Shown piece by piece: positions 31,929 to 35,074 of a stretch of 64,000 nucleotides of DNA. The stretch spans positions 2,976,001 to 3,040,000 of the forward strand of contig NZ_CP109487.1 in NCBI RefSeq assembly GCF_036227605.1. The letters run 5' to 3'. Origin of the DNA: Streptomyces sp. NBC_01439. Its GTDB lineage: Bacteria; Actinomycetota; Actinomycetes; Streptomycetales; Streptomycetaceae. Made by a program: the position numbers and the translations under genes. The notes under the pieces are model-generated. The model did no database searches. It was not told the DNA's origin and was given only the letters and a program-made list of their open reading frames with translations. Positions within the stretch are counted from its first letter, which is position 1; every line of letters starts with the position of its first letter.

Positions 31929-32062
31929 GGGAGCAGGGTAGGCAGTTCCCGCACCGGGATCACCGCGATTGCGGGGCCCGGAACGGCGGGGGCGGGGGTC
32001 CGGTCACAGCGCTAGTAGGGCTTGGTCAGGTTGGGGCTGGTGTTGCGTGTCCTAAGGGCTCG

Positions 32063-33346
32063 GTGAGTCGTTCAAGACGTGTGACGCCGGAGGAAATTGC
32101 AGCTGTACGTGGCGAGTTGGAGGACTTCGCGGCGGAGGTTTTCGAGCCGTTCGCGCGTAAGGATCAGCGTCGGTGGGGGCGGGTTTACCTGCGGGGCCTG
32201 CTCACGGACGGGCAGCGCAAGTCGGTCGAGCCGATGGCCGCCCGGCTGGGCGAGGACGGGAACCGTCAGGCCCTGGCCCACTTCATCACCACCAGCCCGT
32301 GGGACCCCGCGCATGTGCGGGCCCGGCTGGCCTGGAGCATGGAGAAGGCGATCCGGCCCACCGTGCTGATCTTCGATGACACCGGCTTCCTCAAGGACGG
32401 CAATGCCTCGGCGTGTGTCTCGCGGCAGTACACCGGCACTGCGGGCAAGGTCACCAACTGCCAGGTGGGCGTCTCCCTGCACCTGGCCTCGGACCACGCC
32501 TCGGTGGCGGTCAACTGGCGGCTGTTCCAGCCCGAGGCCTGGGACCCCGCCTCGCCGAAGGCGGACCCGGCCAAGGTCGCCCGCCGCACCGCCTGCGGCA
32601 TTCCCGACGACACCGGGCATGTGGAGAAATGGCAGCTGGCCCTGGACATGCTGGATGAGACCCGCTCGTGGGGCATCGAGGTGCCGCTGGCCGTCGCGGA
32701 CGCCGGATACGGAGACGCGGCGGCATTCCGGCACGGCCTGCAGGCCCGCGGCCTCAACTACATGGTGGGGATCTCCACCACCCTCTCGGCCCAGCCCGGC
32801 GAAGCCGTGCCGGTGACCGAGCCCTACTCCGGGAACGGACGGCCACCCGTGGCGAAGTACCCGGACAAGCCGCAGTCGGTGAAACAGCTGGTCATCGCGG
32901 CCGGCCGGAAGACGGCGAAGCCAGTGCAATGGCGTGAGGGCTCCCGGCCCGGCACCGGCCGCAGCGGCTTCAAGCGGATGTACTCGCGGTTCGTGGCCTT
33001 GCGGATCCGGCCTGCCGGTCGCGAGGTCCGCCACACGGTCGAGGGCCCGGAACTGCCCGCATGCTGGCTGCTGGCCGAGTGGCCGGCCGACCAGGGCGAA
33101 CCCGTTCAGTTCTGGCTCTCCGACCTGCCCGCCGACACCCCGCTGACCACCCTGGTCCGCCTGGCCAAGCTCCGCTGGCGCATCGAGCACGACTACCGCG
33201 AGATGAAACAGGCCCTGGGACTTGCCCACTTCGAGGGACGCACCTGGAACGGATGGCACCACCACGTCACCCTCGTATCCGTCGCCCACGCCTTCTGCAC
33301 CCTGCAACGACTGGCCAGAGCCCCAAAAGACATGGCGCCGGCCTGA
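32063..33346 (+). CDS. IS701-family DDE transposase (C-terminus in -1 frame)
   Basis: A 427-residue transposase of the IS701 family. Catalytic Asp residues appear in VLIFDDTGFLKDG and AVADAGYGD, the Glu in RIEHDYREMKQALGL. GTG 32063 has an AAGGG ribosome site. The frame stops at 33346, shortly after LQRLARAPKDMAPA, while the -1 frame continues with LSLYQVVRELQTLLATWTGA and CPTCHRG to a TGA at 33445-33447, as family members normally do. So the true C-terminus of about 39 residues lies in the -1 frame, either through programmed slippage at CCA-AAA-G or because one base was gained by mutation. If neither works, this copy is inactive. Confidence 0.85.
   Translation: MSRSRRVTPEEIAAVRGELEDFAAEVFEPFARKDQRRWGRVYLRGLLTDGQRKSVEPMAARLGEDGNRQALAHFITTSPWDPAHVRARLAWSMEKAIRPTVLIFDDTGFLKDGNASACVSRQYTGTAGKVTNCQVGVSLHLASDHASVAVNWRLFQPEAWDPASPKADPAKVARRTACGIPDDTGHVEKWQLALDMLDETRSWGIEVPLAVADAGYGDAAAFRHGLQARGLNYMVGISTTLSAQPGEAVPVTEPYSGNGRPPVAKYPDKPQSVKQLVIAAGRKTAKPVQWREGSRPGTGRSGFKRMYSRFVALRIRPAGREVRHTVEGPELPACWLLAEWPADQGEPVQFWLSDLPADTPLTTLVRLAKLRWRIEHDYREMKQALGLAHFEGRTWNGWHHHVTLVSVAHAFCTLQRLARAPKDMAPA
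33323..33329 (+). other. Possible -1 frameshift site in the transposase gene
   Basis: In frame 0 the codons here are CCA AAA followed by G. Slipping back one base lets the AAA-reading tRNA pair with AAA again and the CCA codon re-pair as CCC (two of three matches). AAA is rare in this genome type. The downstream sequence in the -1 frame encodes the family C-terminus. Confidence 0.45.
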
Positions 33347-33457
33347 GCCTCTACCAAGTCGTCCGCGAGCTACAAACCCTCCTCGCGACATGGACCGGCG
33401 CATGCCCCACCTGCCACCGCGGCATACCCACACCAACCCCAACCTGACCAAGCCCTA

Positions 33458-33622
33458 CTAGTGCTGTGGCCGGAAAGGTTTGCCGGTTCGCGGCGTTCGG
33501 TGCGGTACATCGCAAGGCGGAAGGCCGCGGCTCGTACTGGACGTACTTGCGCGGTCCGACAACGCGGCGAGGTGCCGTACCGGGCGTCGTGAGCCGGTGA
33601 ACCTTTCCGGCCACAGCACTAG
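33458..33622. mobile_element. 165-base palindromic MITE-like element flanked by CTAG
   Basis: Both ends carry the 23-base inverted repeat CTAGTGCTGTGGCCGGAAAG-GTT and its complement. The arms extend to 56 positions (33458-33513 with 33567-33622) with 46 Watson-Crick pairs, 9 G-T pairs and 1 mismatch (33509), around a 53-base loop. CTAG stands at each end, and the left CTAG is also the right end of the IS. There is no coding frame for a transposase, so it is non-autonomous. The ends differ from those of the adjacent IS701 element, so a different transposase should move it. Confidence 0.85.
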
Positions 33623-34968
33623 AGGGGACCGAGGTCACCGTGGAGGACGGTCCGGGTGATCGGGGGCCGATCCCGGAGGGCGAGGATCTCGTTGGCGAGG
33701 TCCACGACGGGGAGCGGGTCCTGGTCGCGGTGCACCTCGATGGAGGCCGCCTCGAGGCTGCGCGGTACGGCTCCGGCATCGAGCAGGACGCGCCAGTCCT
33801 GCGGGCCCAGTTCGAGGAACTCCAGTGCGGTCAGTCGGGCGATCTCCAGCGGGTCGGCGAGCGTGCCCGGGGAGGCGGTGAGGGTCCGTAGCCGGGGCAG
33901 TCCCATGACGGGGACGAGGCTCAGCGGTGCGCCCTGCCATCCGCCGGTGGACAGCACCTCCAGGCGCGGGTCGACGACGGCACGGGGGTCCGTCAGGCCC
34001 GCGAGGTCGGTCCGGGCGCCGGGCCGAGGTCGGTCCCCCGGGCGGTCGCGGCGCCCTTCCCCGCGTCCGTTGACCACCAGGTCGGTGAGGGAGTCGGCGA
34101 GCAGTTCACCGCCGATGACCTGCTCGTGGTCGATCAGCACGATCTGTCCGAGGGCGCCCCGCGGGCCCGGCGTCAGATCGACCGCGATCGGGTCGCCTCC
34201 GCCGCCGACCGCGAAGACGATCCAGCCCGGGGAACCGACCAGGCCCTGTACGGCGGCGCCGGGCGGTGTGTCGACGACCTGCATCGCCGCGGACCGCCAG
34301 TCGCACGGACGGGTGGGGGCGCGGGCGACGTACAAGCGCTCCAAGGGGAGGAGTTCGCAGTCGACCGCCCCATCGAGGTGTTCGGCGGCCCCGTCGACGT
34401 CGCCGCGGCCCCTGCGCCCCGCCGCGGTCACCCGGTGGAGCACCTTGAGCTCGTCGGGCAGCGTGACGCCCAGTCGTTCCTCCGCGGCGGCGATCTCCGC
34501 CTCCGTAGCCCCCCGGGCGCCGGGCACCTGCGCGCGGAGCGTGCGTTCCAGCAAGGCCGGATCCGCCGACGGCGACGGTGCCGCCCCGGGGGTCGGATCG
34601 GGGAGGCGGCGCCAGGGTTCGGCGAGCGCCCCCTCGACCAGGAGGAGCGCCCCCGGGTGCACGGTGGCGAATCCGGGCTCCACGGCGGGTCCGGGATCGA
34701 TCAGGTGGAGCGCGGTCGCCCCGGTCGGCGAGACCTCCGCCTTGAAGCAGACGTCGCGGGCTTCCGCGTCCGCGAGCGCGCGCAGCACCCGCTCCACCGC
34801 GTCGAGCTCGGCCCGGCTCGCCCGTCCGCGCCGCGGACGTCGAGGGGCCCGTACCCAACCGCGCCGGCCGATCCGTCCCGCCAGGTGGCCGTCCGGGGCC
34901 GCAGGTGTCCGCACACCGTCGGCGCGCAGGATCCGCAGCAGCGGCTCCCAGGTCGCGAAGTCGTGCAT
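33619..34968 (-). CDS. SUKH (SMI1/KNR4) domain protein
   Basis: A 449-residue protein with an SMI1/KNR4-like (SUKH) domain at about 140-290 (ATEAEIAAAEERLGVTLPDE, then LKVLHRV, then GWIVFAVGGGGDPIAVDL). SUKH proteins commonly serve as immunity proteins against secreted toxins, but some are housekeeping. A C-terminal half with a leucine-rich-like series (LEFLELGPQDWRVLLDAG) follows. No toxin gene is adjacent. Its TAG stop lies within the CTAG at the end of the palindromic element, so insertion there did not shorten it. ATG 34968 is chosen over the upstream GTG/ATG frames for lack of a ribosome site elsewhere. Confidence 0.75.
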   Translation of the reverse strand: MHDFATWEPLLRILRADGVRTPAAPDGHLAGRIGRRGWVRAPRRPRRGRASRAELDAVERVLRALADAEARDVCFKAEVSPTGATALHLIDPGPAVEPGFATVHPGALLLVEGALAEPWRRLPDPTPGAAPSPSADPALLERTLRAQVPGARGATEAEIAAAEERLGVTLPDELKVLHRVTAAGRRGRGDVDGAAEHLDGAVDCELLPLERLYVARAPTRPCDWRSAAMQVVDTPPGAAVQGLVGSPGWIVFAVGGGGDPIAVDLTPGPRGALGQIVLIDHEQVIGGELLADSLTDLVVNGRGEGRRDRPGDRPRPGARTDLAGLTDPRAVVDPRLEVLSTGGWQGAPLSLVPVMGLPRLRTLTASPGTLADPLEIARLTALEFLELGPQDWRVLLDAGAVPRSLEAASIEVHRDQDPLPVVDLANEILALRDRPPITRTVLHGDLGPL

Positions 34969-35074
34969 CGCGGGCAAGAACGGCCTCCGGTCGAGTGCGG
35001 CGGCCGGTCGTCCGCCACCCCCGCCGGCCCTGCACACACCCTACGCAGCACCACCGACACCCGCCCCGGTCAGG

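Follow-up and report, generated by a model that had tools for sequence, protein, structure and literature searches.

A MITE-like foldback element of Streptomyces and other bacteria with a plus strand that is probably selected to fold

Introduction

MITEs are a known class of mobile elements, and in bacteria they have mostly been viewed as passive DNA that is recognised at its ends only. A palindromic element of Streptomyces sp. NBC_01439 raises the question of whether the inside of such an element can be under selection as well, and on which strand. It lies at 33458–33622 of the window, by which we mean the whole stretch of 64,000 nucleotides that was analysed. A sequence-only reading had described it as a stem of 56 positions with 46 Watson-Crick pairs, nine wobbles and one mismatch, all wobbles being G-T on the plus strand and none A-C, and had taken this as a sign of selection for a folded plus strand, either as RNA or as single-stranded DNA. 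Here, the family of this element, its copies and ends, its strand-specific pairing, the covariation of its helices and its wide distribution are described.

Anatomy and fold of the element

The element is bounded at both ends by CTAG, which is itself palindromic, and its inverted repeat was recovered independently in a separate search. The following features were assigned to the element and its neighbours:

32016–33457, plus strand: IS701-family insertion sequence adjoining the left edge of the hairpin, with CTAG on either side (32012–33461 with both CTAGs); its transposase reading frame ends at 33346
33458–33622, plus strand (the folding strand): whole foldback element from CTAG to CTAG, 165 nt, recognised by inverted repeat, fold and mirror pairing
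33458–33461, no strand: left CTAG, common to the right end of the adjoining IS701 element, as judged from the flanks of 13 IS701 copies
33462–33480, plus strand: left terminal inverted repeat, TGCTGTGGCCGGAAAGGTT; together with CTAG, 23 nt are identical in both arms
33481–33513, plus strand: left inner arm, which holds all nine wobble positions (mirror pairing; G-T bias of the inner arms)
33511–33521, plus strand: 5' side of the conserved core motif, CGCAAGGCGGA (alignments A1 and A2)
33522–33555, plus strand: variable apical hairpin (plus-strand fold; covarying pairs in helices 3 and 4)
33534–33537 and 33543–33546, plus strand: apical stem GTAC/GTAC with its loop at 33538–33542 (plus-strand fold)
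33556–33571, plus strand: 3' side of the conserved core motif, CCGACAACGCGGCGAG (alignments; its CGACAACGCGG part stood in the search pattern)
33567–33599, plus strand: right inner arm, pairing with 33481–33513 (mirror pairing)
33600–33618, plus strand: right terminal inverted repeat (arm comparison)
33619–33622, no strand: right CTAG; read on the minus strand, its TAG ends the neighbouring reading frame
33619–35037, minus strand: neighbouring reading frame that runs towards the element, encodes an SMI1/KNR4 (SUKH-1) domain and stops in the right CTAG

Mirror pairing, in which position i is set against 67080 − i over the outer 56 positions, showed the earlier count to be exact: 46 Watson-Crick pairs, nine G-T pairs at the same nine positions, no A-C pair and a single A-G mismatch at 33509/33571. 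Inward of position 56, simple mirror pairing fails, and a core hairpin with internal loops follows. From the outside in, the layout is thus CTAG/YTAR, a family-specific terminal repeat, a wobble-rich helix, the core with its internal loops and a variable apical hairpin. The core of the element family is ATCGCAAGGCGGA ... CCGACAACGCGGCGAG and contains the internal loops. Model R2, of whose 55 rows the window copy is one, matched the window at 33491–33582 on the plus strand with 87.9 bits, the runner-up reaching 13.1.

When each strand was folded with 18 flanking bases per side and compared with 200 dinucleotide shuffles, the plus strand reached −146.6 kcal/mol (z −13.2) and the minus strand −116.1 kcal/mol (z −8.1). 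A second recurring module of the outer helix, its left side reading approximately TGCGAGGA and its right side GACCGCA or CCGCAGC, was seen by eye in Bacillota and some actinomycetes; in the window element the corresponding stretch is ordinary helix.

Copies, ends and transposon partners

The 9.58-Mb single contig of this genome holds eight close copies at 96–100%, the window copy included, and two further copies at 83% that are interrupted by short inserts. The near-identical copies sit at differing loci of the genome. Model R1 found 21 core copies, and the other elements of the genome match the query at about positions 32–138, which is the core, or at part of that only. The window element carries the end that we call family A, CTAGTGCTGTGGCCGGAAAGG, and other readable ends in the same genome are CTAGGTCCTGTCGTCAAAGT (B), CTAAGGGCTGTCCCGTAATCC (C) and CTAGGCCGTCTCTTCCGGATC (D). 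Among relatives in general, the core is shared whereas the ends are of many kinds. With its length of 165 nt, its 23-nt terminal inverted repeats and its many copies, the element has the build of a MITE, and it is non-coding as judged by length.

G+C-rich short hairpins that resemble REP sequences (of the CTCCCCCAGC...GCTGGGGGAG type and similar) break the arms at a few recurrent points beside the core. Such inserts were observed at loci L010, L022, L023, L131, L179, L202 and L203.

Two kinds of ends could be linked to autonomous insertion sequences present in the same genome. At locus L075, an IS630-family transposase (NF033545, 156 bits) lies between family-A-like ends, the left one at 568 and the right one at 1813 or 2459. 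At locus L236, an IS5-type transposase lies between CTAAGGGCTGTCCCGTAACTG ends, of which the first 18 bases equal family C; this protein passes for Pfam DDE_Tnp_4 and HTH_Tnp_4 and reaches 129.4 bits for NCBIfam IS5, below the cut-off of 140. One and the same core therefore occurs within ends that resemble those of two unrelated transposase families, IS630 for family A and IS5-type for the C-like ends. Beside the elements, three transposases were searched for. No insertion sequence partner was found for B, D or other ends. One locus was searched for an empty site in 61 genomes, and none was found. At L075 (1810–2550), a reading frame of the SMI1/KNR4 (SUKH) type separates the IS630 transposase gene from the outer family-A end, as a passenger would, and a SUKH reading frame adjoins the hairpin of the window too.

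The IS701 element to the left also targets CTAG. The genome has 13 copies of its right 358 bases at 100%, every one with a CTAG at either side (window, L348–L360), and seven of the 13 abut a hairpin of the element family, so CTAG-targeting insertion sequences are often neighbours of the core. This suggests a landing preference of IS701 beside the hairpins, and the adjacency is a possible route for an exchange of ends. The left flank of the IS701 copy in the window (32000–32015) ends in CCGGTCACAGCGCTAG, which is of the family-A type, as if CTAG insertions had been stacked side by side.

Strand-specific G-T pairing

The sequence-only reading had considered nine G-T pairs out of nine unlikely by chance, and against a 1:1 expectation this holds (p = 0.004, two-sided), although p-values for the G-T bias overstate its strength, as the elements are still related. 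It had also named two observations that would speak against it: close copies that are perfect palindromes, and A-C pairs as frequent as G-T elsewhere. Neither was encountered. All nine G-T pairs are retained in all eight near-identical genome copies, the window copy included; A-C among these is limited to one cell in each of two copies, within the terminal repeat, where the other seven do not have it. Among 56 non-redundant elements, the helix transitions on the plus strand were 279 G-T versus 33 A-C, with more G-T in 53 elements, more A-C in none and three even. The excess is stronger than one copy can show, because the pattern holds in non-redundant relatives.

These counts were made with a symmetric helix filter after removal of redundancy, G-T and A-C being scored alike in the arm alignment, and only elements with an arm alignment above the score limit were counted (93 in a first count; 32, 10 and 14 in the filtered groups). 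In the 32 elements of the Streptomyces set, the ratio of G-T to A-C was 145:8 in the inner arms and 38:17 in the outer 25 bp, and 30 elements had more G-T and none more A-C. The ten elements from Bacillota gave 36:2 (nine with more G-T, none with more A-C), and 14 elements from other actinomycetes gave 60:6 (14 and none). The latter group comprises Actinocatenispora, Leucobacter, Microtetraspora, Sphaerimonospora, a Nocardioides and a Micrococcales MAG; for it and for Bacillota, the elements were retained from 31 loci per group, and the loci of the phylum search described below (L253–L259) did not reach the filtered counts. Before filtering, the bias was weaker in seven elements of other actinomycetes (inner arms 37:14, outer 13:3) and in five of Bacillota (inner 12:0, outer 6:6).

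The first count of 93 elements in 33 clusters had given 567 G-T to 37 A-C in the inner arms and 131:61 in the outer 25 bp, with G-T in excess in all 33 clusters. Tandem wobbles in this set were 148 of the 5'-UG-3'/3'-GU-5' type, two of the reverse type and 20 of GG/UU types, numbers that partly reflect shared descent; 5'-UG-3'/3'-GU-5' is the usual orientation of tandem wobbles in RNA. Short palindromes lacking the core, which were collected as a control for the G-T bias, were too few for the purpose (12 in all, of which few looked genuine on inspection, with 11 of 21 transition pairs concordant).

Covariation

For the covariation analysis, 82 of 156 windows with less than 90% mutual identity formed the pool, from which 57 rows were chosen by hand and aligned with MAFFT (alignment A1). 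Paired cells made up 95.4% as compared to 77.5 in shuffled alignments, a figure that holds for intact elements because the 25 rows omitted by hand mostly had an arm broken or replaced. The folding filter had moreover set aside 64 of 191 candidate cores, including genuine ones with REP-like inserts. Double changes were counted in 194 cells versus 53.8 ± 7.2 in shuffles, none of 500 shuffles being as high, whereas structure registers that were slid along the alignment yielded far fewer, at most 74. The helices of these 57 rows thus covary beyond shuffled controls, as expected of a structured RNA, although the controls are somewhat flattering since the structure came from the same alignment and the rows are related. 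In 16 of 22 pairs both sides had changed. Wobbles exchange with each other and with Watson-Crick pairs, as in columns 16–93 (UG 33, GU 12, GC 4, CG 3, UA 3, other 1).

The claim of selection for a folded plus strand, as RNA or single-stranded DNA, is therefore supported on three counts, as G-T far outnumbers A-C in relatives, all eight close copies keep the wobbles and the helices covary. It has to be weighed against drift alone, either by a strand-asymmetric C-to-T bias or from one founder with nine changes, so that the G-T pairs would merely be inherited. The nine positions are indeed common by descent to all eight close copies, and related sequences are non-independent and can exceed shuffles. 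However, double changes far exceed those in shuffles, with pairs shifting in every direction (GC, CG, UA, AU, UG and GU), and Bacillota as well as other actinomycete genera show the bias again. Nor would a mutational bias lead one to expect the weaker G-T excess in the terminal repeats of the Streptomyces set. Drift alone is thus a very improbable explanation.

Distribution across bacteria

In the genus of the window, 267 of 392 genomes, its own included, gave core matches by BLAST (E <= 0.001), many of the best E-values being weak. A search of one-per-species genomes with the exact core pattern returned at least 118 stretches (L118–L235). A portion of the core motif was fixed in this pattern, which did not include the helices to either side or the wobbles; invariance of the core motif in these loci is partly by construction, because the CGCAAGGCGGA region and CGACAACGCGG stood in the pattern. 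Among the matches listed, most are from Streptomyces, and there are others from Kitasatospora, Actinacidiphila, Solihabitans, Nocardioides, Actinocatenispora, Microtetraspora, Sphaerimonospora, Leucobacter, a Micrococcales MAG and a Bifidobacteriaceae MAG. One of the matches listed lies outside Actinomycetota, in an Oscillospiraceae MAG (L189). Matches were also obtained in 45 plasmid records, 44 of Streptomyces and one of Embleya.

In a sample of the phylum, 14 of 198 genomes had a model match, seven of them outside the genus. On reading these seven loci, L253, L254, L256, L257 and L259 look real, with arms, and L258 and L260 were set aside as apparent chance matches. The genome of L189 shows an extreme expansion, with 125 model matches in a MAG of about 1.9 Mb, and in the family to which it belongs 7 of 120 sampled genomes match, its own included. 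In another genome of that family (G598), model matches come as opposed pairs spaced about 20 nt apart, with 17.8 to 26.2 bits for the weaker member (L311, L316, L323, L327 and L331).

The Bacillota loci had been found by model R1, which included two rows from L189. A model built without these two, from 55 rows (13 of the window genus and 42 titled as actinomycetes) and free of any Bacillota row, still recovers the Bacillota copies. With this model, locus L284 scored 51.9 bits with structure and 30.4 with sequence only from the same rows, and the same 33 loci gave 41 matches with structure versus 28 with sequence only, a comparison that is rough because the two models weight rows differently.

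Core searches in phages were without a match. In viral contigs the strict core pattern had no match; a looser pattern gave three, mutually identical over the stretch inspected, which do not have the hairpin fold of the element and were rejected.

Gene context

Genes around L118–L235 were predicted with our own codon-usage script. Among the matches listed, 5 of 106 elements overlap a predicted gene. Of the remaining 101, 38 have a gene 3' end no more than 60 nt away on the sense side, 46 on the antisense side and 15 on both. In elements with YTAR at either end, the TAG is the stop codon of a neighbour in 30 of 55, an upper estimate because an element end could have more than one candidate site, as compared to 41 of 168 background CTAGs; 18 of the 168 lie inside predicted genes. 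As CTAG reads TAG on either strand, its duplication keeps a stop for both of two convergent genes, and insertion at such a site would be nearly harmless.

Frequent location at gene 3' ends could also mean that the element is a terminator or mRNA stabiliser that is useful to the host and kept for that. In one study, many abundant short RNAs of S. coelicolor and E. coli were mapped to palindromes, many of them in 3' UTRs, and were interpreted as probable decay intermediates (PMC4681348), which would fit such a role. On the other hand, the element has no orientation preference, its near-identical copies sit at different genome loci, and the CTAG site accounts for the location at gene ends, as its TAG is a stop in 41 of 168 background cases already. 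A host-useful 3' end element is therefore improbable. Because gene orientation is unbiased (38 versus 46), transcription from the neighbouring gene would in many copies not yield the folding strand, and this argues for a fold that benefits the element and not the individual host genes.

The same lack of orientation bias counts against an RNA, and single-stranded DNA would likewise prefer G-T over A-C. The folded plus strand might thus be single-stranded DNA that is recognised in replication, conjugation or transposition, with no part for RNA. DNA hairpins also tolerate G-T, copies occur in both orientations to genes, and the conserved internal loops could form a DNA-binding site. Orientation to replication leans 14:7 in the own genome and 9:5 in ten other single-contig genomes among the matches listed, but this crude tally of 23:12 is not significant (p = 0.09), with the origin assumed to be central and the copies non-independent. 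Both partners identified, with three transposases covered by the search beside the elements, are moreover DDE enzymes, one of the IS630 family and one of the IS5 family, and such transposases act on double-stranded ends. Single-stranded DNA is thus a serious alternative that we nevertheless regard as unlikely, and RNA seems the likelier form of the folding strand.

Discussion

The element is probably best explained, with moderate confidence, as a MITE-like, non-coding foldback with CTAG/YTAR sites and ends like those of insertion sequences, the plus strand of which is selected to fold, most likely as RNA. Transposases of the IS630 family and of the IS5 type would mobilise it. It may act as a transcript that arises from read-through at the gene ends where it is often located, and its conserved core may be bound or processed by a widely conserved factor of the cell, candidates being an RNase III-like nuclease, RNA polymerase or the ribosome. 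Contact with such a factor would make the insertion tolerated and let the element persist. What selection would maintain is a long hairpin with conserved internal loops, in which wobbles are tolerated and A-C pairs are not. G-T pairs may be favoured doubly, as the RNA stays folded and the DNA palindrome becomes less perfect and so less unstable.

A bolder idea, for which we see a real yet less than even chance, is that the structured core itself is the unit of selection, a selfish RNA or single-stranded DNA module, conserved between Actinomycetota and Bacillota, that survives by swapping its transposon ends, also for those of unrelated transposase families, with many of these ends directed at the same, nearly harmless CTAG stop-codon sites. 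If true, this would make the family a selfish unit of a new type, with an inside that is conserved across phyla, RNA-like covariation, wobbles on one strand and ends that change partner. For antibiotic-producing bacteria, the family also provides a concrete candidate RNA that is very abundant and easy to test.

The structured RNA families in Rfam likewise have helices that covary and internal loops that are conserved. None of the 4227 families of Rfam 15 reaches its cut-off at the window element, and in the loci of six relatives no match to the element was obtained at E <= 0.1. The matches below threshold in the window copy are to two microRNA-precursor families (61.1 bits versus a cut-off of 168, E 1e-9; 41.2 versus 268, E 1.4e-5), an identity that was rejected and put down to the long hairpin shape. 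In Rfam 15 and among the open-licence papers listed, no description of the core was found.

Integron attC sites and the ends of IS200/IS605 elements are imperfect hairpins recognised on one strand, and the element resembles them as an imperfect hairpin with pairing that favours one strand. Unlike them, it has ends that are long near-perfect repeats as in insertion sequences with DDE transposases. Integron attC sites have R'' and R' core sites; the RYYYAAC/GTTRRRY pair was not seen in the element on inspection by eye. REP/BIME systems combine a short REP, which has a tetranucleotide foot, with a transposase of the RAYT (Y1) kind.

Transcribed palindromic repeats as such are already known. As described in one paper, NEMIS, ERIC and BIME are transcribed intergenic repeats with stems that are perhaps recognised by ribonucleases (PMC1590033). 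The present element differs from these in that its core with internal loops is conserved between Actinomycetota and Bacillota.

Among the systems that come closest are also MITEs of the IS630 and IS5 families, with which the element shares its short, non-coding build, terminal inverted repeats resembling the ends of an insertion sequence in the genome, the CTAG/YTAR site and the many copies. It differs from them in a conserved inner core that recurs within ends of two unrelated families of insertion sequences, and in the strand-specific wobble bias and covariation of its helices.
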